Below the pieces are notes generated by a model. It was given only the letters and a program-made list of their open reading frames with translations. It searched no databases and was not told where the DNA came from. Made by a program: the position numbers and the translations under genes. From an uncultured Saccharospirillaceae bacterium (GTDB taxonomy: Bacteria > Bacteroidota > Bacteroidia > Flavobacteriales_D > CAJJDF01): a stretch of 60,641 bases of DNA. Positions 3,951-21,320 of the stretch are shown here, in pieces. The stretch spans positions 1 through 60,641 of the forward strand of contig CATLPG010000014.1 in assembly GCA_950054195.1 (NCBI GenBank), read 5' to 3'. The stretch's first letter is position 1, and every line of letters starts with the position of its first letter.

Positions 3951-5624
3951 ATGAAAATATTTTACACACTTTTATTGCTTTCGATGTCCTTTAGTTTTTG
4001 GGCTCAAAACTCTGTAATTTCTTTTGATGGAATAGACGATTATGTTGATCTAGGAACCGATGCTGGAGATAGCATTCGAACGATTGAATTATGGTTCAAG
4101 TTAGATAACCCAGTTGATGATCAATTATCAGATTTTATGGGTTTAGTGGTAAGAGAGAACAATAGCTTTACCAATGAAGGTAATTTCAATTTAAGCTTTC
4201 AGCATAGTGGAGTAGCAAACCCAGGAACTCTTAGGATGAGCATGGGAGGTTTGGCTCCATATGAAGAAGTGTTTTCAAATAATAACTCGTGGAATGCAAA
4301 TCAGTGGTATCATGTAGCCGCAGTAATAGATAGTGTACAAGGAATGATGATGTTCATAGATGGGGTTAAACAAAATAGTACGCACCCATATACGGGAGCA
4401 ACAACAGTTGAGAGTTCAATCACAACTATAGGTGGTTGGGGAACCTTGAATGATCGATACTTTGAAGGAAAGGTAGATGATGTGAAGTTTTCTAAGAAAG
4501 CAAAGTACACTACTAACTTTACTCCAAGCTGTGGAAATGGATCAAACCAGAATCAATATGGTGTATGGAATTTCAATACAGCAAGTTCAGTTGTGGCTAT
4601 TGATTCTTCTGTAAATGGATTTCATGGTGTTATCAATGGAGCAGTAAAATTAAACGAGGATGTTTGTGTTACTGTTATACCTCCAACAAGTAATAACAAT
4701 GTAATTTCTTTTGATGGAGCAGATGATTATGTTGATCTAGGAACCGATGCTGGAGATAGCATTCGAACGATTGAATTATGGTTCAAGTTAGATAACCCAG
4801 TTGATGATCAATTATCAGATTTTATGGGTTTAGTGGTAAGAGAGAACAATAGCTTTACCAATGAAGGTAATTTCAATTTAAGCTTTCAGCATAGTGGAGT
4901 AGCAAACCCAGGAACTCTTAGGATGAGCATGGGAGGTTTGGCTCCATATGAAGAAGTGTTTTCAAATAATAACTCGTGGAATGCAAATCAGTGGTATCAT
5001 GTAGCCGCAGTAATAGATAGTGTACAAGGAATGATGATGTTCATAGATGGGGTTAAACAAAATAGTACGCACCCATATACGGGAGCAACAACAGTTGAGA
5101 GTTCAATCACAACTATAGGTGGTTGGGGAACCTTGAATGATCGATACTTTGAAGGAAAGGTAGATGATGTGAAGTTTTCTAAGAAAGCAAAGTACACTAC
5201 TAACTTTACTCCAAGCTGTGGAAATGGATCAAACCAGAATCAATATGGTGTATGGAATTTCAATACAGCAAGTTCAGTTGTGGCTATTGATTCTTCTGTA
5301 AATGGATTTCATGGTGTTATCAATGGAGCGGTAAAATTAAATGAGGATGTTTGTCAAAGTGCATCATTAATTGAGCATAAACCTGCTGATATTATATTGG
5401 TTTATCCAAATCCTTCTAATACTGGAGTATTTAAATTTTCAAATGTTACTGATTATAGAAGTAAGGTTTTTGTTTATGATGTTTCAGGTAACATTGTATA
5501 TGATCAAACATTGTCTAATCCAAGTTTTGATTTAGATTTATCGACTAATAGTAAAGGAGTTTATTTTTATCAAATTATTAGTGATCAACAATTTATTTCT
5601 ACAGGGAAATTAATTATCAACTAA
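3951..5624 (+). CDS. LamG-like tandem-repeat secreted protein with type IX sorting domain
   Basis: The reading frame opens at 3903, but the ATG at 3951 is preferred. It gives a signal peptide (MKIFYTLLLLSMSFSFWA|QNS), and the 16 residues upstream do not resemble one. The 557-aa product has two LamG / concanavalin-A-like domains (residues ~22-239 and ~251-468; motifs SFDGxDDYVDLGTD, HVAAVIDSVQGMMMFIDG, GKVDDVKFS) that are almost identical. A type IX C-terminal sorting domain follows (VYPNPSNTGVFKF ... GKLIIN). LamG domains usually bind glycans or mediate adhesion, so this is probably a cell-surface or released adhesin exported by the Gld/Por system encoded at 34788-41030. Confidence 0.9.
   Translation: MKIFYTLLLLSMSFSFWAQNSVISFDGIDDYVDLGTDAGDSIRTIELWFKLDNPVDDQLSDFMGLVVRENNSFTNEGNFNLSFQHSGVANPGTLRMSMGGLAPYEEVFSNNNSWNANQWYHVAAVIDSVQGMMMFIDGVKQNSTHPYTGATTVESSITTIGGWGTLNDRYFEGKVDDVKFSKKAKYTTNFTPSCGNGSNQNQYGVWNFNTASSVVAIDSSVNGFHGVINGAVKLNEDVCVTVIPPTSNNNVISFDGADDYVDLGTDAGDSIRTIELWFKLDNPVDDQLSDFMGLVVRENNSFTNEGNFNLSFQHSGVANPGTLRMSMGGLAPYEEVFSNNNSWNANQWYHVAAVIDSVQGMMMFIDGVKQNSTHPYTGATTVESSITTIGGWGTLNDRYFEGKVDDVKFSKKAKYTTNFTPSCGNGSNQNQYGVWNFNTASSVVAIDSSVNGFHGVINGAVKLNEDVCQSASLIEHKPADIILVYPNPSNTGVFKFSNVTDYRSKVFVYDVSGNIVYDQTLSNPSFDLDLSTNSKGVYFYQIISDQQFISTGKLIIN
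4014..4667 (+). repeat. Direct repeat copy 1 of a 654-bp LamG-coding unit
   Basis: This block recurs at 4701-5354 with an offset of 687 bp. By eye the copies differ at only five bases: three near the 5' end (GGAATAGAC versus GGAGCAGAT) and two near the 3' end (GCAGTAAAATTAAAC versus GCGGTAAAATTAAAT). About 600 bases between them look identical, including synonymous positions. Confidence 0.95.
4701..5354 (+). repeat. Direct repeat copy 2 of the 654-bp LamG-coding unit
   Basis: Second copy of the unit at 4014-4667, separated by a 33-bp linker encoding VIPPTSNNN-like residues. Near identity even at silent sites indicates very recent duplication or ongoing gene conversion. Confidence 0.95.
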
Positions 5625-5651
5625 ATCATACTAAATTCATTTAGTTGCTAG

Positions 5652-5659
5652 TATATTTG
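5652..5659 (+). promoter_or_regulatory. Putative Bacteroidota -7 promoter box (TATATTTG)
   Basis: TATATTTG matches the TAnnTTTG -7 consensus of Flavobacteriia/Bacteroidetes sigma-ABfr promoters and lies 20 bases before the ATG at 5680. No clear TTG -33 element is seen. It probably drives the ceramidase-like / kdsD / kdsA run. Confidence 0.5.
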
Positions 5660-5679
5660 CACAATATACTAAGTAATCT

Positions 5680-6393
5680 ATGAATCTTGATAGTTTAAAA
5701 TTAGTTAGGACTCCCTTTATCTTTGATGAAGGACCTATGTATCATGAGTTTGTAGCAGACGCAGTAGTTAAAGAGCCTTGGAATGCTTATTCATCCTTAT
5801 TCTTCTTTATTCCAGTTTTCTATTGGGTTTGGAGGTTAAGAGGTGAATATAAAAAGCATTTAGTACTTACTATATTAATGCCTTTGTTGTTTTTAAATGG
5901 CTTAGGATCTACCTTATTCCATGCTTTTAGAATGAGTGATGTACTCCTTATCATGGATTGGTTACCCGCAGCACTTGTGGTTGTTATAGTTACAGGATAT
6001 TTATGGAGTAAGGCCTTAAATAGTAAGCTGGGGGGAATTATAGCTTGTGTTTTCTTTTTCTTTTTTGCAGGGTTTGTGTTCAATACAATAAAAACGAAAA
6101 GTTTAGCAATGAACTTAGGTTATTTAACAGAAGGAATAGGCTTTCTAACACCTACAATTATTATCCTGTTTAAAACAAGATTTAAGGACTGGATTCATAT
6201 TTTTTTAGCATTATTATGCTTAGGATTAGCTCTTTTATTTAGAGTGTTAGATTTCCCAACACCTAATCCTTTCCCAGATTTTATGCCCCAAGGAACACAT
6301 TTCTTATGGCATATTATCAGCTCATTTGCTGTTTTCTTTTTGGGTACTTACATTTATAGATTAAATAACAATTCAGCGCTTGGACGAAATTAA
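5680..6393 (+). CDS. CREST-superfamily membrane hydrolase, alkaline ceramidase-like
   Basis: A 237-aa protein with about seven membrane segments. Placement rests on the CREST / alkaline-ceramidase residue pattern: EPWNAYSSLFF before the first segment (residues 32-42), S77 and H81 in GSTLFHAF, D93 in LLIMDWLP, and H207/H211 in GTHFLWH. In this family the three histidines bind catalytic zinc together with the Ser and Asp. By family knowledge it would hydrolyse an amide bond in a sphingolipid-like molecule; Bacteroidota often make sphingolipids or sulfonolipids. The substrate here is inferred. It overlaps the following isomerase gene by 14 bases. Confidence 0.75.
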   Translation: MNLDSLKLVRTPFIFDEGPMYHEFVADAVVKEPWNAYSSLFFFIPVFYWVWRLRGEYKKHLVLTILMPLLFLNGLGSTLFHAFRMSDVLLIMDWLPAALVVVIVTGYLWSKALNSKLGGIIACVFFFFFAGFVFNTIKTKSLAMNLGYLTEGIGFLTPTIIILFKTRFKDWIHIFLALLCLGLALLFRVLDFPTPNPFPDFMPQGTHFLWHIISSFAVFFLGTYIYRLNNNSALGRN

Positions 6394-12527: not shown

Positions 12528-15386
12528 ATGAATAGACTACTTATAAGCAGTTTTTTTGTTTTTGCTTTAAACTTTATCAATGCACAAGAGTATACGTTTG
12601 TAAATTATTCTTCGAAAAATGGAGTAGTATCTTCATTTACAACTTCTCTGCTTCAAGATAATAAAGGGAAATTATGGATTGGAACCAATAGAGGTGTTTC
12701 AATTTTTGATGGAACATCATTTGAAACGCTAAGTCAAATTAATGGATTAGCCAATAACCATGTCTCTGAATTGGAATATACAGCGGATGGTTCAGTATGG
12801 GTTCTGCATAAAAATGGGGAGCTTTCATTCGTTAAAAATGATACTATAAAGTCACTAGGCTATAAGCACGATACCATTTTATCATTAACTAAAAGTGAAG
12901 ATGAAGTATTTGCTTTGACTAAGCAATCGGTTATCGCTTTAAAATCAAAGAAAAGTAAATACAAAAATTTATTATCCAATAAGCAAATATTAAATATTCA
13001 AGGAGATAATGTTTTTGCATATTCACATGATTCATTAATCTGTATTTCAGCCAAAGGAAGAACATTACTTACAGTTGATTATTTTGATAAAAAACAGCAA
13101 GTATTAACTATAAACGGTAAACATATTGCGCTAGGCCAACGCTCAATAACAGTTTTAAAAGACCAAACTGTTATTAAAAAGATCATGCTACCAAACGATA
13201 TTACTTTTGGGAAAGTGCTCAATGGAAACTTATTTGTTGGAACGGCAAGTAAATTAATTGAATACAAAATAACTGAAAACATAACTCTAGTTAATGAGTA
13301 TGGCTTTCCTTTGGATAGACAAAATTTTTCAATTTCAGATGTGATTTTTGATAAAGAAAAAACGCTTTGGATAAGTACAAAAGGAGGAGGAGTTTTTAAA
13401 CTACCAAAAGAACATTTTCCTCTATTGGAAGGTAAAGCAGTCTCTTTAACTCAGGTTTCTGCATTTAACAACACTCCTAGACTGGTTTATGACAATCAAG
13501 TTGTGGAGTTAGGTGAGCAAAATAAAATGCTTTACAGGCATTATACAAGTGGACTAAATTGCTACTACAAAAAATCATTTGGAGAGCAGTGGATAGGAGA
13601 GAAATCAGGTTTATCCATTATCGTTCCTGGAGCAGCTTTTGCTTATGCATTTAAAGAAATGAGAGGAAAAAATATTATAGATGTTTTTCCTTATGGTCTT
13701 AAAATGGTTGTTGTAACCAGTAAAACCATTTATGCTTATAATCCTGCTAATAATGGGTTCGAAAAATTTATCGATGACCCCAAATTTGAACCTTATACTA
13801 CAATTAAGAAAGATTCAATAGTTTACATAATGGGCAAAGGAAATGTCTATAAAGTAGATGAAAATGGTATACAACCTTTCTTTTCAGAAAGCTACGATGA
13901 AATAAAGAATTTAACTTTTACATCTTTAGCTATCAAAAATAAAAAGTTTTACTTAGGTACATTGGAGAAAGGTATTATCGAATACACAAAAGGGTTAAAA
14001 CCAACCTTTATTTATAACGAGGATTTTCCAAGCGAGCAAATAATATCTTTAGGTATAATAGATAATCAATTTTGGTGTGCAACACCAATTGGTTTAGTTA
14101 AAATGAATCTAGAAAAAAGGACCTATGATTTTTATGATCAGAGCTACTTTAATAATATAAATTTTATTTCTACAGCAACTATTAGTATAGATAACAAACT
14201 ATACATGCCCGCAAATGAAGGCTTGATAGAGATAAACCCGTACTTTTTTGTCTCTTCTGATTTGCCAGATGTAAACTTAGAGAGTTTTTTAGCTAACGGA
14301 GAGTTTGTTTCTTTGTCAACAGATAAATCATTCCCTTACAATGAAAAGCCACTATCTTTTAGCTTTTCTTCGAATAGTTTGAAAAGTGAAGTTTATTATC
14401 AATATAGACTTTTAGGTCTTGATTCAACATGGAGTGACCCAACAAATCAAAAAAGTATTGTATACAGTCGCCTACCAGCAGGAGAATATACCTTTCAGGT
14501 TAGAACAGCTAGCTTAAACTCTAACTCTGTAGGAAAAATTTTAGAACAAACATTCTCAATTAATTTGCCAATTTATAAAACAGCAGGATTTTGGATTGTT
14601 ATTATATTAATTATTTTAGGGGTTGTGTTTCTATATTATTTTACACGAATAATTAGGCTTCGCAAGCAACGAAAATTATTGAAAGAAGAAGTTGAAAGAA
14701 AAACATTTGAACTTTCAGCTGAAAAAAAGAAAATAGAACAATTTTCATATTCACTCTCACATGATTTAAAGAATCCAATAAATAACATCAAAGGACTGGT
14801 GGAAATTATGGAGGAAAACCAATCTGGAGAGGATGTAGTAAAGATGTTAAGTGATGCAGCTAATCAGCTAGAAACAAAGATTAGTAGAAGCTTAGATGCA
14901 ATTAAAAAAGTTCATGAAAAAAGTAGTGTTAAACCAATAAACATTAAGGATAAGCTTGAAGAAGTAGAAAAGTCCCTGCTATTCTTGATTAAAGGGAGTA
15001 AGGCTACTATAGAAAAAGATATACGAGTAGAAACATTTATTCAAGAGGATACGCTATTAGAGAGTATCTTATACAACTTAATTTCTAACGCTATAAAGTA
15101 TAAGCATCCCGAACGTAAACCAATAATTGAAATTAAAACTGATAGAGTTGGAGAGTTCAAGCGAATTCATATTCTAGACAATGGTATTGGTATCGACTTG
15201 AAAAAGGAGGACGACCTCTTTTCCATATTCAAACGAGTAAACGAACAAAAAGATGTAGAGGGAACAGGCTTGGGGCTTTACATGATCAAACAAATGATTG
15301 AACTTCGTGGGGGTAAAATCGAAGTTGAAAGCCAGCCTCAACTTGGTAGTAAATTTCTTGTATACCTTAAAGATTTAAAAGATTAA
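12528..15386 (+). CDS. Two-component propeller sensor histidine kinase
   Basis: A 952-aa membrane sensor. Signal peptide MNRLLISSFFVFALNFINAQ; periplasmic Reg_prop beta-propeller repeats (GKLWIGTNRGVSIFDG, KTLWISTKGGGVFKL) to about residue 590; a Y_Y_Y-type Ig-like domain (SFSSNSLKSEVYYQYRLLG); one TM at ~686-708; a short coiled coil; then the HisKA phospho-acceptor H745 in SLSHDLKNPINNIKG. The HATPase boxes are NLISNAIKYKHP, LDNGIGID and GTGLGLYMIKQMIELRGG. Unlike hybrid HTCS proteins it has no receiver or DNA-binding domain, so its response-regulator partner is elsewhere. Its stop interlocks with the convergent proC stop. Confidence 0.9.
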   Translation: MNRLLISSFFVFALNFINAQEYTFVNYSSKNGVVSSFTTSLLQDNKGKLWIGTNRGVSIFDGTSFETLSQINGLANNHVSELEYTADGSVWVLHKNGELSFVKNDTIKSLGYKHDTILSLTKSEDEVFALTKQSVIALKSKKSKYKNLLSNKQILNIQGDNVFAYSHDSLICISAKGRTLLTVDYFDKKQQVLTINGKHIALGQRSITVLKDQTVIKKIMLPNDITFGKVLNGNLFVGTASKLIEYKITENITLVNEYGFPLDRQNFSISDVIFDKEKTLWISTKGGGVFKLPKEHFPLLEGKAVSLTQVSAFNNTPRLVYDNQVVELGEQNKMLYRHYTSGLNCYYKKSFGEQWIGEKSGLSIIVPGAAFAYAFKEMRGKNIIDVFPYGLKMVVVTSKTIYAYNPANNGFEKFIDDPKFEPYTTIKKDSIVYIMGKGNVYKVDENGIQPFFSESYDEIKNLTFTSLAIKNKKFYLGTLEKGIIEYTKGLKPTFIYNEDFPSEQIISLGIIDNQFWCATPIGLVKMNLEKRTYDFYDQSYFNNINFISTATISIDNKLYMPANEGLIEINPYFFVSSDLPDVNLESFLANGEFVSLSTDKSFPYNEKPLSFSFSSNSLKSEVYYQYRLLGLDSTWSDPTNQKSIVYSRLPAGEYTFQVRTASLNSNSVGKILEQTFSINLPIYKTAGFWIVIILIILGVVFLYYFTRIIRLRKQRKLLKEEVERKTFELSAEKKKIEQFSYSLSHDLKNPINNIKGLVEIMEENQSGEDVVKMLSDAANQLETKISRSLDAIKKVHEKSSVKPINIKDKLEEVEKSLLFLIKGSKATIEKDIRVETFIQEDTLLESILYNLISNAIKYKHPERKPIIEIKTDRVGEFKRIHILDNGIGIDLKKEDDLFSIFKRVNEQKDVEGTGLGLYMIKQMIELRGGKIEVESQPQLGSKFLVYLKDLKD

Positions 15387-16189: not shown

Positions 16190-16412
16190 TTAGTTCTAGA
16201 TTTTTGTTGATTTACCCCTTAAAATACTCATTTCATCAGTTTTTAACAAAAAATAAATTTTAGCTAGGTGCATCTGTTTTTCTATAGAAAAAAGAAAGAA
16301 TATGATTTTTGTTGTGTATTAGAGACAGTTTTTAAGTAAAACCACTTAGTTTTTTAAGAATTTTTTACGATGTTTTCATCCTAAATGAGAAGTACTTTCG
16401 ACTTAAAAAACT
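16190..16412. promoter_or_regulatory. Intergenic control region with 12-bp inverted repeat over the next start codon
   Basis: This divergent region separates proC from the synthase operon. TAGTTTTTTAAG (16347-16358) and CTTAAAAAACTA (16402-16413) are perfect inverted repeats spaced by 43 bases. The second arm ends on the A of the ATG at 16413. If transcribed from upstream, the arms could pair and hide the translation start. TACTTTCG at 16393-16400 is one mismatch from the TAnnTTTG -7 box; a promoter there would exclude the first arm from the RNA, leaving the repeat as a possible operator instead. Confidence 0.35.
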
Positions 16413-18854
16413 ATGAGTAATTACGGGAATTTTATTGAAACAGTTAATGGTTTACTATTAGATGCGAAAGATAAAAAAGTTATCAATCTAAATGTTGGTA
16501 AAGTACAAAGTGAAACAAATAACATATCAATAGGGGAAGAGGAGTACACGAGTTTTGGCTCCTGTAGTTATTTAGGTTTAGAGTTTGATCAACGAATAAA
16601 AGATGGAGCGATAAATGCTATTAATACCTTCGGAACACAATTTTCTTCATCACGAGCATATTTATCTGTTGGGCTATATGAGGAGTATGAACATCTATTA
16701 TCTCAAATATTTGGGTCACATACCATCGTTACACCAACAACATCATTAGGGCATATAGCAGCAATACCTAATCAAGTAGGAGATGATGATGCGGTAATTA
16801 TGGATCACCAAGTACATACTTCAGTTCAAGTTGCGGTTAATTTATTAAAACCACGTAAAATACATGTTGAGTTAGTTCGTCATAATAACATGGAAAGATT
16901 AGAAGAAAGAATTATTGAACTATCAAAAAAATATAAAAAAGTATGGTACATGGCGGATGGTGTTTATTCCATGTATGGAGATGTATTGCAGTATGAGCAA
17001 CTCCAATACTTTTTAAATAAATACGATAAATTTCATTTATATGTAGATGATGCTCATGGAATGTCAATTGCGGGTAAGCATGGCAGAGGACTCACGCTTC
17101 AAAAAATGGAATTACATCATAAAATGATTGTAGCTACTTCTTTTGCTAAAGGATTTGCTACAGGTGGTGGTGCATTAATTTTTCCAGATAGCCACCAAAT
17201 TGATATTACTCGAAATTGTGCATCGCCCTTAGTTACATCAGGACCACTTCAACCAGCAAACTTAGGAGCTGGTATAGCTGCAGCCAAAATTCATTTAACA
17301 GATGAAATCTATGGTTTACAAGAGCAATTGATGGATAACATTAACTATACAAACATCTTACTTAGAAACTCTTCTTTACCAGCTGTGTTTAATTCACAAA
17401 CCCCTATTTTCTTTATAGGAACATCCGTACCTAAAGTAGCGTATAACATTATTGGTAAAATGAAAAAGGACGGACATTACCTTAATTTAGGAATGTTTCC
17501 AGCTGTACCAATGAAAAATACTGGAGTTAGGTTTACAATTACCCGTTTACACACCTTTGACCAAATTGAAAAAATGGTGAAAGACTTGGAGAAAAACTAT
17601 CACCAAGCATTGTTTGAAGAAAATTTTGATGAACAAAAAATTTATAAAGCATTCAAAATTAAGTCCAAAGAAGAAGTTTTTTCAGAGAGAATTACTAAAA
17701 AAATAGAAGATCAATTTTTATTAAAAACAATTCATGAAACTTCTATAGAAAAGATCAATAAAACTGATTGGAATCAAGTTTTTAGTGGTGTTGGCTCTTT
17801 CGATTGGGAAGGTCTTAAGTTGCTTGAACATACATTTAAAAACAATGATGAAAATTATAATAATTGGGATTTTGATTACCTTATTTTAAAAGATGAACAG
17901 GGAGATATTATCGCAGCTACTTTCTTCACCGCTGCATGGAGCAAAGATGATATGTTTGCCCCAGAAGAGGCCTCTATACTTATTGAAAAGAAAAGAGTTA
18001 AAAACCCAAATTATTTAGTTTCTAAAACCCTATTTATGGGCTCGTTATTTACTGAAGGAAACCACCTTTACTTAAATATGAACCACCCTAAATGGGAAGC
18101 TGCAATGAATATCATTTTCGAAAAAATTGATGAATTAAAAGAACAGTATAAAGCAGAAAATGTTATTCTTCGTGATTTTGATAACATCCCCGACAAATTA
18201 AATAGCGTATTTATAGATAATGGGTTTTATAAAACAGAGCTTATGGATCGTTGGGAGAATAATAATTTGAATTTTAGTGATGAAAATGAGTTTCTGAATT
18301 CCTTAACCTATGAACGAAGGAGAAAAATAAAAAAAGAAGTATTGCCTTTCATTGAAAAGTTTGAGACTAAAGTGTATAATTCAAATTCTATTATTGACAA
18401 TAATAAACTTGATTTATGGTATAAATTATATTTTAACGTGAAGTCAAAAAGCTTAGCATTAAATACTTATCCGCTACCAAAAAAAATCTTTGAAACGGCT
18501 ATTAAGTCTAACTCTTGGGAAATAATAGAGTTTATAAATAGAGACTCTGGAGCTGTAGTAGCAGTCGTTTTATCTAATATAAACAGTGAAACCTATTCAC
18601 CTATGCTCATAGGGATAGATTATGAAGCAAAAACAAGAGGAAGCGTATATAGACAGGCTTTGTTTTTCTTAGTTACTAGAGCTAATAGTCTTAAAAAGGA
18701 TAAGTTAAGTTTAGGGTTTTCAGCAGGTGTTGAAAAGAAAAAAATAGGAGCTAACCCAATCAAGTCATATATTTATTTATGTACAGATACAACATATAGT
18801 CAGCAAGTAATAGCAAATATTACTTCGAATAAAAAAGTCACTGTTAACGCTTAA
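16413..18854 (+). CDS. Alpha-oxoamine synthase fused to GNAT/BioF2-like acyltransferase
   Basis: An 813-aa fusion. Residues ~1-410 form a PLP-dependent alpha-oxoamine synthase (BioF / serine palmitoyltransferase / CqsA family). Visible are the stacking His in MDHQVHTS (H135), DDAHG (D212, H215), the PLP lysine K246 in ATSFAKGFATGGG and VRFTITRLHTFDQIE. The family condenses an acyl-CoA with an amino acid, releasing CO2. Residues ~440-805 look like a FemAB/BioF2-like GNAT acyltransferase (LRDFDNIPDKL, LTYERRRKIKKEVLPF, SPMLIGIDYEAKTRGSVYRQ). One polypeptide could thus make and then N-acylate an amino-ketone (lipid precursor or signal); this is inference. First gene of a run ending in a two-component system. 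Confidence 0.82.
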   Translation: MSNYGNFIETVNGLLLDAKDKKVINLNVGKVQSETNNISIGEEEYTSFGSCSYLGLEFDQRIKDGAINAINTFGTQFSSSRAYLSVGLYEEYEHLLSQIFGSHTIVTPTTSLGHIAAIPNQVGDDDAVIMDHQVHTSVQVAVNLLKPRKIHVELVRHNNMERLEERIIELSKKYKKVWYMADGVYSMYGDVLQYEQLQYFLNKYDKFHLYVDDAHGMSIAGKHGRGLTLQKMELHHKMIVATSFAKGFATGGGALIFPDSHQIDITRNCASPLVTSGPLQPANLGAGIAAAKIHLTDEIYGLQEQLMDNINYTNILLRNSSLPAVFNSQTPIFFIGTSVPKVAYNIIGKMKKDGHYLNLGMFPAVPMKNTGVRFTITRLHTFDQIEKMVKDLEKNYHQALFEENFDEQKIYKAFKIKSKEEVFSERITKKIEDQFLLKTIHETSIEKINKTDWNQVFSGVGSFDWEGLKLLEHTFKNNDENYNNWDFDYLILKDEQGDIIAATFFTAAWSKDDMFAPEEASILIEKKRVKNPNYLVSKTLFMGSLFTEGNHLYLNMNHPKWEAAMNIIFEKIDELKEQYKAENVILRDFDNIPDKLNSVFIDNGFYKTELMDRWENNNLNFSDENEFLNSLTYERRRKIKKEVLPFIEKFETKVYNSNSIIDNNKLDLWYKLYFNVKSKSLALNTYPLPKKIFETAIKSNSWEIIEFINRDSGAVVAVVLSNINSETYSPMLIGIDYEAKTRGSVYRQALFFLVTRANSLKKDKLSLGFSAGVEKKKIGANPIKSYIYLCTDTTYSQQVIANITSNKKVTVNA

Positions 18855-18865
18855 AAGAGCTCGCT

Positions 18866-19078
18866 TTGATAAAGCCATCTGAAATATCATTATTTTCGTT
18901 AGAAGCACAATGGAAGCTTTTGAATAAGTATGGTGAATATATTTTAGAACAATCTGTGGGAAATCTAACTACTTTAATATTATTTGAGTTTAATGATTGT
19001 TTTTTTCATGTTTACATGGATAAAAAGGAAAAAACGATCAAGAAAATTATACCCTTTAATCATAATGTGCTAATTTAA
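18866..19078 (+). CDS. Small hypothetical protein in the synthase operon
   Basis: A 70-aa protein starting at TTG (18866), 11 bases after the synthase stop and 5 bases before the next ATG. It has no signal or membrane segment. The composition is mixed, with an aromatic core (LILFEFNDCFFHVYMDK) and a lysine-rich tail. The strand-like pattern suggests a small alpha/beta fold. I do not recognise a family. The tight spacing argues that it is a real operon member. Confidence 0.55.
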   Translation: MIKPSEISLFSLEAQWKLLNKYGEYILEQSVGNLTTLILFEFNDCFFHVYMDKKEKTIKKIIPFNHNVLI

Positions 19079-19083
19079 TAGGC

Positions 19084-19488
19084 ATGAATGGTAATGAGGT
19101 GAAGCAAAGAAAGGAAAGGAAGGAAACAAAACATTTAATATTAGAAATTAAAGACGGAGTGCTGTTTGCTGTCTTTAAATCGGGCAAAATTGCATATTCG
19201 GATGCTATAGAGATTATTAATGAAAGATTAGAATATACAGAAGGTAATAGCTATCCAGCTATAGCTACTACTGAAAAAAATCTGGTAATTGATAAGTTGG
19301 CACGCGAATATTTCAGGAGTGATGATGGAGTTAAGGGGTTGTCTGCTATGGCAATGGTAGAGGATAAAAAGTATACTCAAATATTAATAAATTTCCTTTT
19401 GAAGTTTTACAAATCGCCAATACCTATGAGCATATTTACAACCGAAGAGGATGCCGAGAAATGGATAAAATCATTAAATATTAACTAA
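19084..19488 (+). CDS. STAS/SEC14-like (SpoIIAA-like) small regulatory protein
   Basis: A 134-aa protein whose core resembles the STAS/SpoIIAA-like family found in Bacteroidota and cyanobacteria (DUF7793-type by my recollection). A strand pair HLILEIKDGVLFAVFKSGK, then ATTEKNLVIDKLAREYFRSD, then LINFLLKFYKSPIPMSIF and TTEEDAEKWIKSL. Such domains serve as regulatory partners or lipid-binding modules. The N-terminus is strongly charged (KQRKERKETK). Its TAA stop overlaps the kinase ATG by one base (TAATG), so translation is probably coupled. A link with the kinase is likely by context; its function is unproven. Confidence 0.6.
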   Translation: MNGNEVKQRKERKETKHLILEIKDGVLFAVFKSGKIAYSDAIEIINERLEYTEGNSYPAIATTEKNLVIDKLAREYFRSDDGVKGLSAMAMVEDKKYTQILINFLLKFYKSPIPMSIFTTEEDAEKWIKSLNIN

Positions 19489-20630
19489 TGAACAAAGAGC
19501 ATATTCATGAATTAACAGAGTTTGCCATGGCTTACTACAATGGTGATGTTGTTGAGAGTATGCCAGTTTTTAATGATGATGAATTAGATGCCTTGGCATT
19601 AGGTATTGATCTTTTAGGGCAAGAGCTCCATGAGCAAGTTTCTTCTAAAGATTACTTTAGTACTTTATTTAGACAATCTAGTCAGTTTATTTTTATTGTA
19701 AATCGTAAAGGTGGAGTAGAACATGTAAATAAAAAAGCCATAGAAAACATCACAACTGATTTGATATATGAAGGCGAAACATTTACTGTGTTTCAATTAT
19801 TTGAATTTCCCACCGGCTCCAGAGGAATGGAAGATTTTCAAGAGTTTGTTTTGTCAAAAACAGATGATGCTACTTTTAAGTCAGAAGCTAGGTTAAAAGG
19901 TAAAAACAAGTTAGTTCCTGTTCGTATGTCTTGTCAATATATTGAGCAAATTGATGAGTTTACAATAGTAGCAGAAGATATTTCAAAAGAAAAAGCACAA
20001 GATCAAAAATTAATGCGAGCAATTTTAGAAACTCAAATTAATGAGCAAAATAAAATTGCTAAAGAATTGCACGATTCGGTTACCCAAAATTTAAGTGGTG
20101 CTAAAATGATGCTTAGTCGTTTAAATAAAATTAACGAAGATGAAAAACTGGCTCATGCACTTTCTTCCTTACTAGAAATTGTAGACGAGTCTATTGTTGA
20201 GATAAGAGACTTGAGTCATAACTTAATGCCTTCTTATTTAAGGTTTCCAATTCAAGAGTCTATCAGCCATTTGATTAAGAAAATCAAAGCGTATGCACCT
20301 TTTGATATTGAAGCTTATATTAATAATGACATCCCTGAGATTGATCAAAGTTACAAGTCGGCCATCTATCGAATAATTCAAGAGTTTTCGCATAACACTG
20401 TTAAATATGCAAAAGCCAAAACATTATCGGTTTCGATAACTTTTGAAGGGGACAAAATAATAGTATTACTACAAGATGATGGAATAGGGTTTGATTTAGC
20501 TAAAGAAAAAAGTAAAAACGGAATAGGAATAAATAATATTCTTTCCCGTATAAAAATCTTTGACGAAGGGTATCATTTTTCATCTGCACCTAATAAAGGA
20601 ACATCATTGTTTTTCTCTTTAACTTTATAA
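19488..20630 (+). CDS. Soluble PAS-domain sensor histidine kinase (HisKA_3 / NarL type)
   Basis: A 380-aa kinase with no signal peptide or membrane helix, so it senses something inside the cell. Residues 1-50 form an acidic helical region (FNDDELDALALGIDLLGQEL). PAS spans ~55-165 (QFIFIVNRKGGVEHVNKKA). The HisKA_3 dimerisation box carries H195 in KELHDSVTQNLSGAK. HATPase: EFSHNTVKYAKA (N box), LQDDGIGFDL (G1) and NGIGINNI (G2). It is the obvious partner of the NarL-type regulator 12 bases downstream. The upstream synthase might provide its ligand or be its target. Confidence 0.92.
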   Translation: MNKEHIHELTEFAMAYYNGDVVESMPVFNDDELDALALGIDLLGQELHEQVSSKDYFSTLFRQSSQFIFIVNRKGGVEHVNKKAIENITTDLIYEGETFTVFQLFEFPTGSRGMEDFQEFVLSKTDDATFKSEARLKGKNKLVPVRMSCQYIEQIDEFTIVAEDISKEKAQDQKLMRAILETQINEQNKIAKELHDSVTQNLSGAKMMLSRLNKINEDEKLAHALSSLLEIVDESIVEIRDLSHNLMPSYLRFPIQESISHLIKKIKAYAPFDIEAYINNDIPEIDQSYKSAIYRIIQEFSHNTVKYAKAKTLSVSITFEGDKIIVLLQDDGIGFDLAKEKSKNGIGINNILSRIKIFDEGYHFSSAPNKGTSLFFSLTL

Positions 20631-20642
20631 AAATCAACTCTT

Positions 20643-21320
20643 ATGGCACTTACTAAAAACAAATCAAGAACGAAAAGAACAAGAATAGTGAAAAAATCGT
20701 ATAAGATATTAATTGTTGAAGATCATAACGTAGTTAGAGCAGGTATTAAATTTATGCTTGATACTATTCCCGAATATACATTTACTATACATGAATCTGA
20801 CGATGAAATTGATGTCTTAAAACGATTATCAGTTAACGAATATGATATCATTTTACTAGATATTGAACTTAATGGAGCTAATGGAATTGATATTCTTCAA
20901 AAAATAAAAGACTTTAATCCAGCACAAAAAGTAATTATGCTTACCATGTATAATGATATACTAACAATTAATAAAGCATTAAAAAATAAGGCAAATGGTT
21001 ATATTCTTAAAAACCTTATTGAGGAGGAAATTTTTTTAGCAATTAAAACTGTAATAAAAGGTAAAAAGTACTTATGTAATGAAGTATCACAAATTTTACT
21101 TGAGGATAGGGAAACATCATCGTTAGACTTATTGAGCAAAAGAGAACGAGAGATTGTTGTGTTAATAGCTGAAGGATTATCCAATGTGGAAATAGGTGAA
21201 AAACTCTCGTTAAGTTACCGAACTGTTGATACACACAAACAAAACATTTACGGGAAGTTAGGGCTAAAAAAGAATATTGAACTTGTTCGTTACGCTTTAA
21301 AAAATAACTTAATTAATTAA
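20643..21320 (+). CDS. NarL/FixJ-family response regulator
   Basis: A 225-aa regulator. The REC domain (residues ~21-140) has acidic pocket E26/D27, phospho-acceptor D73 in IILLDIELNGANG, a Thr in IMLTMYND and a Lys in NKANGYILKN. A LuxR-type HTH follows (LLSKREREIVVLIAEGLSNV ... SYRTVDTHKQNIYGKLG). An unusual N-terminal basic tail (MALTKNKSRTKRTRIVKKSY) precedes REC. It is the likely output of the PAS kinase and may control this operon. Its stop interlocks with the convergent VanZ-like gene. Confidence 0.93.
   Translation: MALTKNKSRTKRTRIVKKSYKILIVEDHNVVRAGIKFMLDTIPEYTFTIHESDDEIDVLKRLSVNEYDIILLDIELNGANGIDILQKIKDFNPAQKVIMLTMYNDILTINKALKNKANGYILKNLIEEEIFLAIKTVIKGKKYLCNEVSQILLEDRETSSLDLLSKREREIVVLIAEGLSNVEIGEKLSLSYRTVDTHKQNIYGKLGLKKNIELVRYALKNNLIN

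Follow-up and report, generated by a model that had tools for sequence, protein, structure and literature searches.

Alpha-oxoamine synthases are known from two kinds of bacterial system that resemble the locus described here. In Caulobacter, the synthase Spt acts first, and the cytoplasmic N-acyltransferase bCerS then acts on its keto product (PMC11087976). In the Cqs/Lqs systems, the synthase is co-encoded with a sensor kinase that has six transmembrane helices, and sometimes with a regulator (PMC3376566). The locus analyzed here lies on a 60,641-nucleotide stretch of DNA from an uncultured Saccharospirillaceae bacterium (contig CATLPG010000014.1; the window), and consists of five genes encoding an alpha-oxoamine synthase fused to an acyltransferase, a 70-amino acid protein, a DUF7793 protein, a soluble histidine kinase and a NarL-type response regulator. 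BioF2 (Rv0032) of Mycobacterium tuberculosis also joins an alpha-oxoamine synthase to a GNAT domain, in the reverse order, and is not known to have a sensor attached.

The reading favored here, with moderate confidence, is that of a locally regulated biosynthetic cassette, in which the fusion enzyme works under its own sensor, regulator and operator. The pyridoxal phosphate (PLP)-dependent half would join an amino acid and an acyl thioester with release of CO2 to give an alpha-amino-ketone, and the Fem/NMT-like half would acylate the amine, yielding an N-acyl amino-ketone that is keto-ceramide-like. A single polypeptide would in this way do the work of Caulobacter Spt and bCerS. The DUF7793 protein, with its Sec14-like fold class, and the soluble HAMP-PAS input of the kinase would form a cytosolic sensing unit, and the kinase would phosphorylate the NarL-type regulator. 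The regulator would bind a 7-2-7 inverted repeat before the fusion gene and set its expression; in divergently arranged loci, it would probably also set the expression of the sensor genes.

Conservation of the module and exchange of its outputs

The neighborhood survey covered 47 fusion loci (the window included) and two unfused relatives. A DUF7793 gene adjoins the fusion in 43 of the 47; three loci (L070, L072 and L077) have none, and in L058 the contig ends. Some sensor accompanies the fusion in about 39. A HAMP-PAS-HisKA_3 kinase and a NarL regulator are linked to the fusion in 22 loci, either co-directionally, as in the window, or divergently, with the fusion pointing the other way. The synthase tree places the co-directional window locus inside a group of divergent kinase loci, so its gene set was retained through a change of layout. 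In eight loci, belonging to another family, an AraC regulator takes the place of the pair, and its N-terminal part is this HAMP-PAS input (profile E 3.5e-18); 8–9 loci carry a different PAS-HATPase kinase of 444–505 amino acids. Sensor and layout labels require 9 changes on the tree, compared with 31.3 when shuffled (0 of 200 shuffles as low). Six genomes hold two fusions, from different clades; two of these (G233 and G279) each have one kinase/NarL locus and one alternative-kinase locus. Pairwise distances of the synthase, DUF7793 protein, kinase and regulator correlate with one another (r 0.79–0.96). The initial annotation, made from the window alone, had proposed a search for co-occurrence across Bacteroidota and had named a gene order confined to this genome as a refutation. 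That refutation fails, and the counts support the view that the five genes work together as a module that is also conserved in other genomes.

The fusion itself is accessory. Within the order, 33 of 399 genomes have it; across the phylum, matches came from 9 of 395 genomes, a count that includes the window's own genome and one unfused synthase. It is absent from the single same-genus genome searched (G001). In a partial comparison of the site in that genome, the DnaJ-like gene retains one neighbor, and the VanZ gene and the module are absent on its other side; a search of G001 for a match to the pyrroline-5-carboxylate reductase (P5CR) that precedes the module found none. A plasmid search returned no fusion, with only unfused synthases (28–32% identity) among the matches listed.

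Two side observations concern the AraC-type loci. At L118 (positions 5172–6309; G464:C15), a truncated fusion remnant lies beside intact DUF7793, HAMP-PAS-AraC and MauE genes, a case in which the sensor genes have survived the decay of the enzyme gene. AraC-type loci and one kinase locus are accompanied by a gene for a MauE/DoxX-type membrane protein, which often carries a long extension at its C-terminus (Table 1).

A predicted operator before the fusion gene

Repeated TAAGTnTnnAnACTTA dyads were first spotted by reading upstream regions, and a 7-2-7 inverted repeat, TAAGTRT-NN-AYACTTA, was found upstream of the fusion. Its spacing is that of NarL sites. With up to two mismatches allowed, the 300 bases preceding the fusion contain TAAGTRTNNAYACTTA in 15 of 23 kinase/NarL loci (the 22 above and L052, whose contig ends before the kinase), where shuffled sequences gave a mean of 0.37 and a maximum of 2, and in none of 16 AraC or alternative-kinase loci. 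Among 12 held-out loci, unprinted when the motif was written, six have the site (shuffle mean 0.19, maximum 2). When 150 permuted palindromes were scanned over 22 loci, none equaled the real count of 14; the best, a near-variant, reached 10. The only two perfect sites in the 2.3-Mb genome G002 precede the fusion, as do two of three perfect sites in G325, the sole perfect site in G396 and the sole site with at most one mismatch in G117. Shared 8-mers in the upstream regions did not exceed shuffles, and only the spaced dyad stood out.

Because the palindrome is conserved upstream, confined to kinase/NarL loci and recovered in the hold-out, the co-encoded regulator most likely controls the fusion gene through this predicted operator. 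The initial annotation had the kinase reporting the level of the enzyme's product; the conserved repeat points the opposite way, from the regulator to the synthase gene.

Four loci of the co-directional clade (L073, L074, L075 and L078) carry extra tandem ACACGT/ACGTGT dyads beside a TAAGT-type site, perhaps as a multi-site operator. Elsewhere in the window's own genome, perfect sites lie on contigs C4 and C40, close to a peptidase gene and to a leucine-rich repeat/acyltransferase pair. A wider regulon in that genome was rejected as a claim, as the 12 total sites are not far above the 6 of a reversed-pattern control.

The fusion enzyme

The N-terminal half of the fusion matches Aminotran_1_2 (62.6 bits) and the C-terminal half matches FemAB_like (PF04339). 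The PLP-site residues K246, D212 and H215 (catalytic Lys, Asp and His), which mark the synthase half as a fold-type I alpha-oxoamine synthase, are all present and invariant in 49 of 49 homologues; their loss in homologues, which the initial annotation had named as a second refutation, was not seen. The half aligns to the serine palmitoyltransferase structure 3a2b (E 8e-34). Its closest family, PRK07505, is the top NCBIfam synthase model at 259 bits, under the curated cut-off of 342, and is a single-domain model; it also scores best for two related fusions and one unfused homologue. The synthase half falls far under the curated cut-offs of the serine palmitoyltransferase, BioF, KBL, ALAS and alpha-hydroxyketone synthase models. 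Membership of the serine palmitoyltransferases was rejected on three models (NF047600, NF047599 and NF047603: 160, 148 and 107 bits against cut-offs of 640, 500 and 670). Although the fusion resembles the Spt and bCerS pair in coupling a PLP-dependent alpha-oxoamine synthase to a subsequent N-acyltransferase, it differs in these scores, in placing both on one chain and in having its own sensor. Membership of the Cqs/Lqs synthases was likewise rejected (NF005526, PRK07179: 52.4 bits against 428). The locus shares with Cqs/Lqs the pairing of an alpha-oxoamine synthase with a sensor kinase, but its sensor is soluble, without transmembrane helices, and it has an extra acyltransferase domain and a DUF7793 protein; the view that it is neither Cqs nor Lqs is therefore upheld. 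Apart from the fusion, the genome encodes only two members of the synthase superfamily, a BioF-like protein and a KBL (707 bits against a cut-off of 493), and no other lipid-type synthase was found there. Separately, the unfused synthase of locus L007 (10001–11727) shares 47% identity with the first half of the fusion, and the gene that follows it, on the opposite strand, encodes a SpoIIAA-like protein (PF11964, E 1e-4); this is a looser form of the synthase/SpoIIAA-like pairing, without the acyltransferase.

The acyltransferase half was modeled with a predicted local distance difference test (pLDDT) score of 91.7, as a tandem-GNAT fold of Fem/NMT type. A profile of the domain found no match among PDB sequences, and its kinship surfaced only by fold comparison: Foldseek matched the model to FemX (E 1.6e-13), and Z scores were 20–22 for FemX/FemA and about 17 for NMT with myristoyl-CoA, with MprF also matched. 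At the sequence level, the isolated domain matches PF04339 (33.4 bits, gathering score 27), and of 44 homologues, 30 match PF13480 and 17 match PF04339 (E <= 0.01). Residues W485, K511, D513, R528, R587, G734, Y737 and K775 are at least 95% conserved in the homologue alignment. PF04339 is present in two of the control genomes, one of them that of Caulobacter, whose PF04339 protein is presumably bCerS. The acylation proposed for the second domain, namely on nitrogen, is plausible on this predicted fold, and the fusion probably makes an acylated, sphingolipid-like amino-ketone.

The sensor proteins and the small protein

The third protein of the module had been described as STAS/SEC14-like, which its predicted fold bears out. 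It belongs to DUF7793 (PF25056; 90.8 bits, gathering score 26), a family matched by all 39 aligned members, including neighbors in other loci. The structures nearest to its model (pLDDT 89) are the SpoIIAA-like Shewanella proteins 2q3l and 2ook (2q3l: Foldseek E 5e-5, Z 10.2) and the STAS protein 4xs5. SpoIIAA-like proteins have a Sec14-like cavity able to hold nonpolar ligands (PMC2954212). The Shewanella proteins resemble DUF7793 in fold but stand alone and are not known to have a kinase partner. Few genomes have DUF7793 (13 of 198 in the phylum), and its genome-level co-occurrence with the fusion has a Fisher p of 3e-7 among genomes that are related. No paper found in the literature search, whose coverage of subscription papers is thin, names DUF7793.

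The kinase has HisKA_3 (PF07730) and HATPase_c (PF02518) domains, both above cut-off, and H195 of HisKA_3 is invariant across 22 aligned kinases. The initial assignment as a PAS/HisKA_3 kinase stands: Pfam detects no PAS domain in the window protein itself, but among the 22 kinases of the alignment it recognizes PAS_9 in 15 and HAMP in one. The regulator matches Response_reg (PF00072; 78.6 bits) and GerE (PF00196; 63.2 bits), again both above cut-off, with receiver Asp 73 in ILLDIEL. All parts of a HisKA_3/NarL two-component system are present: the HisKA_3 His, the HATPase domain, the receiver Asp and the GerE helix-turn-helix (HTH). The peak 19-residue hydropathy is 1.00–1.31 across the five module proteins (1.11 for the kinase), compared with 2.13 and 2.66 in two membrane controls, in agreement with the membrane-free character first proposed for the kinase.

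DUF7793 genes also adjoin HAMP-type kinases without a fusion, at L110 and L116 (by profile) and at L119 in the window's own genome (by eye). Since the pair is found without the fusion and also next to the AraC form, it looks like a general sensing pair recruited to the fusion enzyme, which favors control of the enzyme by some sensed condition. At L119 (5822–7433; G000:C15), a second DUF7793 gene of this genome lies immediately ahead of a gene for a soluble HisKA-like kinase that begins with a HAMP-like segment and includes a receiver; upstream lie a sigma-54-type regulator and an Hpt-like protein, and no synthase is nearby.

In 10 other loci, a small gene of 76–111 amino acids lies directly 3' of the fusion or overlaps it. 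The 70-amino acid gene is taken as real because an independent profile of these ten proteins, built with the window's own left out, recovers it (E 1.7e-6). Two members of the small-protein family checked against Pfam had no match. The protein may have a role in the cassette.

Weighing the alternatives

Several points weigh against the cassette with its own operator. The palindrome was originally recognized in ten of the loci later used to test it, a problem that the hold-out answers only in part; the window copy has two mismatches, and in the window alone the site is weak (4 matches at the same stringency over 60.6 kb); and the site is missing at up to three mismatches in 6 of the 23 kinase/NarL loci. 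The AraC and alternative-kinase loci are other clades, so absence of the site there may be due in part to ancestry. The distance correlations may result from common descent alone. Enzymes that depend on aminoacyl-tRNA are also found among the Fem-type folds, which bears on the identity of the acyl donor.

The best-placed alternative is a signal loop, the reading of the initial annotation, in which the DUF7793 protein and the HAMP-PAS sensor would bind the fusion's own product in an intracellular feedback or autoinducer circuit. We hold this possible, if only tentatively. Every fusion clade retains its own sensor type, genomes with two fusions can pair a kinase/NarL locus with an alternative kinase (G233 and G279), and the model of DUF7793 is similar in fold to Sec14-like carriers, which have a nonpolar cavity. 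However, the DUF7793 and HAMP-type kinase pairs without a synthase imply that the sensor pair can do without this product, and the fusion loci L070, L072 and L077 have no recognizable sensor or DUF7793. A fuller version, an undescribed cytosolic lipid-signaling circuit of Bacteroidota in which DUF7793 would present the lipid made by the single-chain fusion to the HAMP-PAS sensor, with outputs (HisKA_3/NarL, AraC or another kinase) exchanged in the course of evolution and input and synthase kept together, is only slightly less likely than the signal loop itself.

An unlikely variant concerns the donor: the second domain would use aminoacyl-tRNA, as FemX and MprF do, and the group it adds to the amino-ketone would be an amino acid, not a fatty acyl chain. 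Its best folds (FemX, Sbb17 and MprF) are indeed aminoacyl-tRNA users, but its sequence families are PF04339 and PF13480, NMT shares the fold and is an acyl-CoA enzyme, and a bacterial ceramide synthase acts beside Spt (PMC11087976). Less probable still is that DUF7793 acts as a phospho-switched anti-sigma antagonist of the SpoIIAA/RsbV type with the module kinase as its partner. STAS folds (4xs5 and SpoIIAA) match the model at Z 8.6–10.4. Conversely, the SpoIIAA phospho-serine position, set by eye from the motif without structure superposition, is A, E or D in most of the 39 members, with no conserved Ser or Thr there, and the kinase is a HisKA_3 protein with a conserved His, not of SpoIIAB type, with a receiver partner present. 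That an ordinary lipid synthase lies by chance beside an unrelated two-component system, the outcome the initial annotation had set against itself, is scarcely credible. Two-component genes are common and G001 lacks the fusion, but the 47-locus survey rejects plain coincidence through linkage recurring in several families and two layouts, and the conserved palindrome lies before the fusion. In its chemistry the fusion may still be an ordinary lipid enzyme, but the kinase beside it is not unrelated.

Layout of the module in the window

Gene calling reproduced the five same-strand reading frames with short gaps reported at the outset (16413–21320), with intergenic distances of 11, 5, -1 and 12 bases in order, the -1 being the one-base overlap TAATG (Table 1). 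A P5C reductase gene before the module and a VanZ-like gene after it both lie on the opposite strand, making the five genes a candidate self-contained transcription unit. Just before the P5C reductase gene, positions 12528–15386 encode a large membrane-bound propeller-type HisKA kinase (Reg_prop, Y_Y_Y), different in type from the soluble kinase of the module.

Table 1. Coordinates of the module features in the window and of MauE/DoxX-type genes at other loci (aa, amino acids).
Feature	Position	Strand	Remarks
Predicted response-regulator site, inverted repeat TAAGTAAAACCACTTA	16333..16348		80 bases 5' of fusion start codon; 2 mismatches to TAAGTRTNNAYACTTA
Alpha-oxoamine synthase (~residues 1-400) + Fem-like tandem-GNAT acyltransferase (~435-813)	16413..18854	+	813 aa
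Small protein, TTG start	18866..19078	+	70 aa; small family directly behind fusion
DUF7793 protein, predicted STAS/SpoIIAA-like (CRAL-TRIO-like) fold	19084..19488	+	134 aa; PF25056
Soluble sensor histidine kinase	19488..20630	+	380 aa; HAMP-like (1-58), PAS (~58-170), HisKA_3 with H195, HATPase_c
NarL/FixJ-type response regulator	20643..21320	+	225 aa; receiver Asp 73, GerE HTH
MauE/DoxX-type genes	L081:12194-13693, L083:3743-5243, L118:7425-8936, L006:5245-5682

Significance of the module

Each part of the module is of a known kind. What is new, within the reach of these tests, is how the parts are combined, together with the interchangeable outputs and the predicted operator. A literature search for such a fusion with a sensor found no paper, with subscription papers mostly beyond its reach. 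The locus provides a conserved, testable unit in which a putative enzyme for a sphingolipid-like acylated amino-ketone comes with a dedicated soluble sensor and a predicted operator, and the exact DNA site allows control by the regulator to be tested. It also places DUF7793, a family not yet studied, in a context for the first time, and documents how the output domains attached to a single sensor have been swapped in nature. If the product were indeed the ligand, the module would represent a new class of bacterial lipid signaling.

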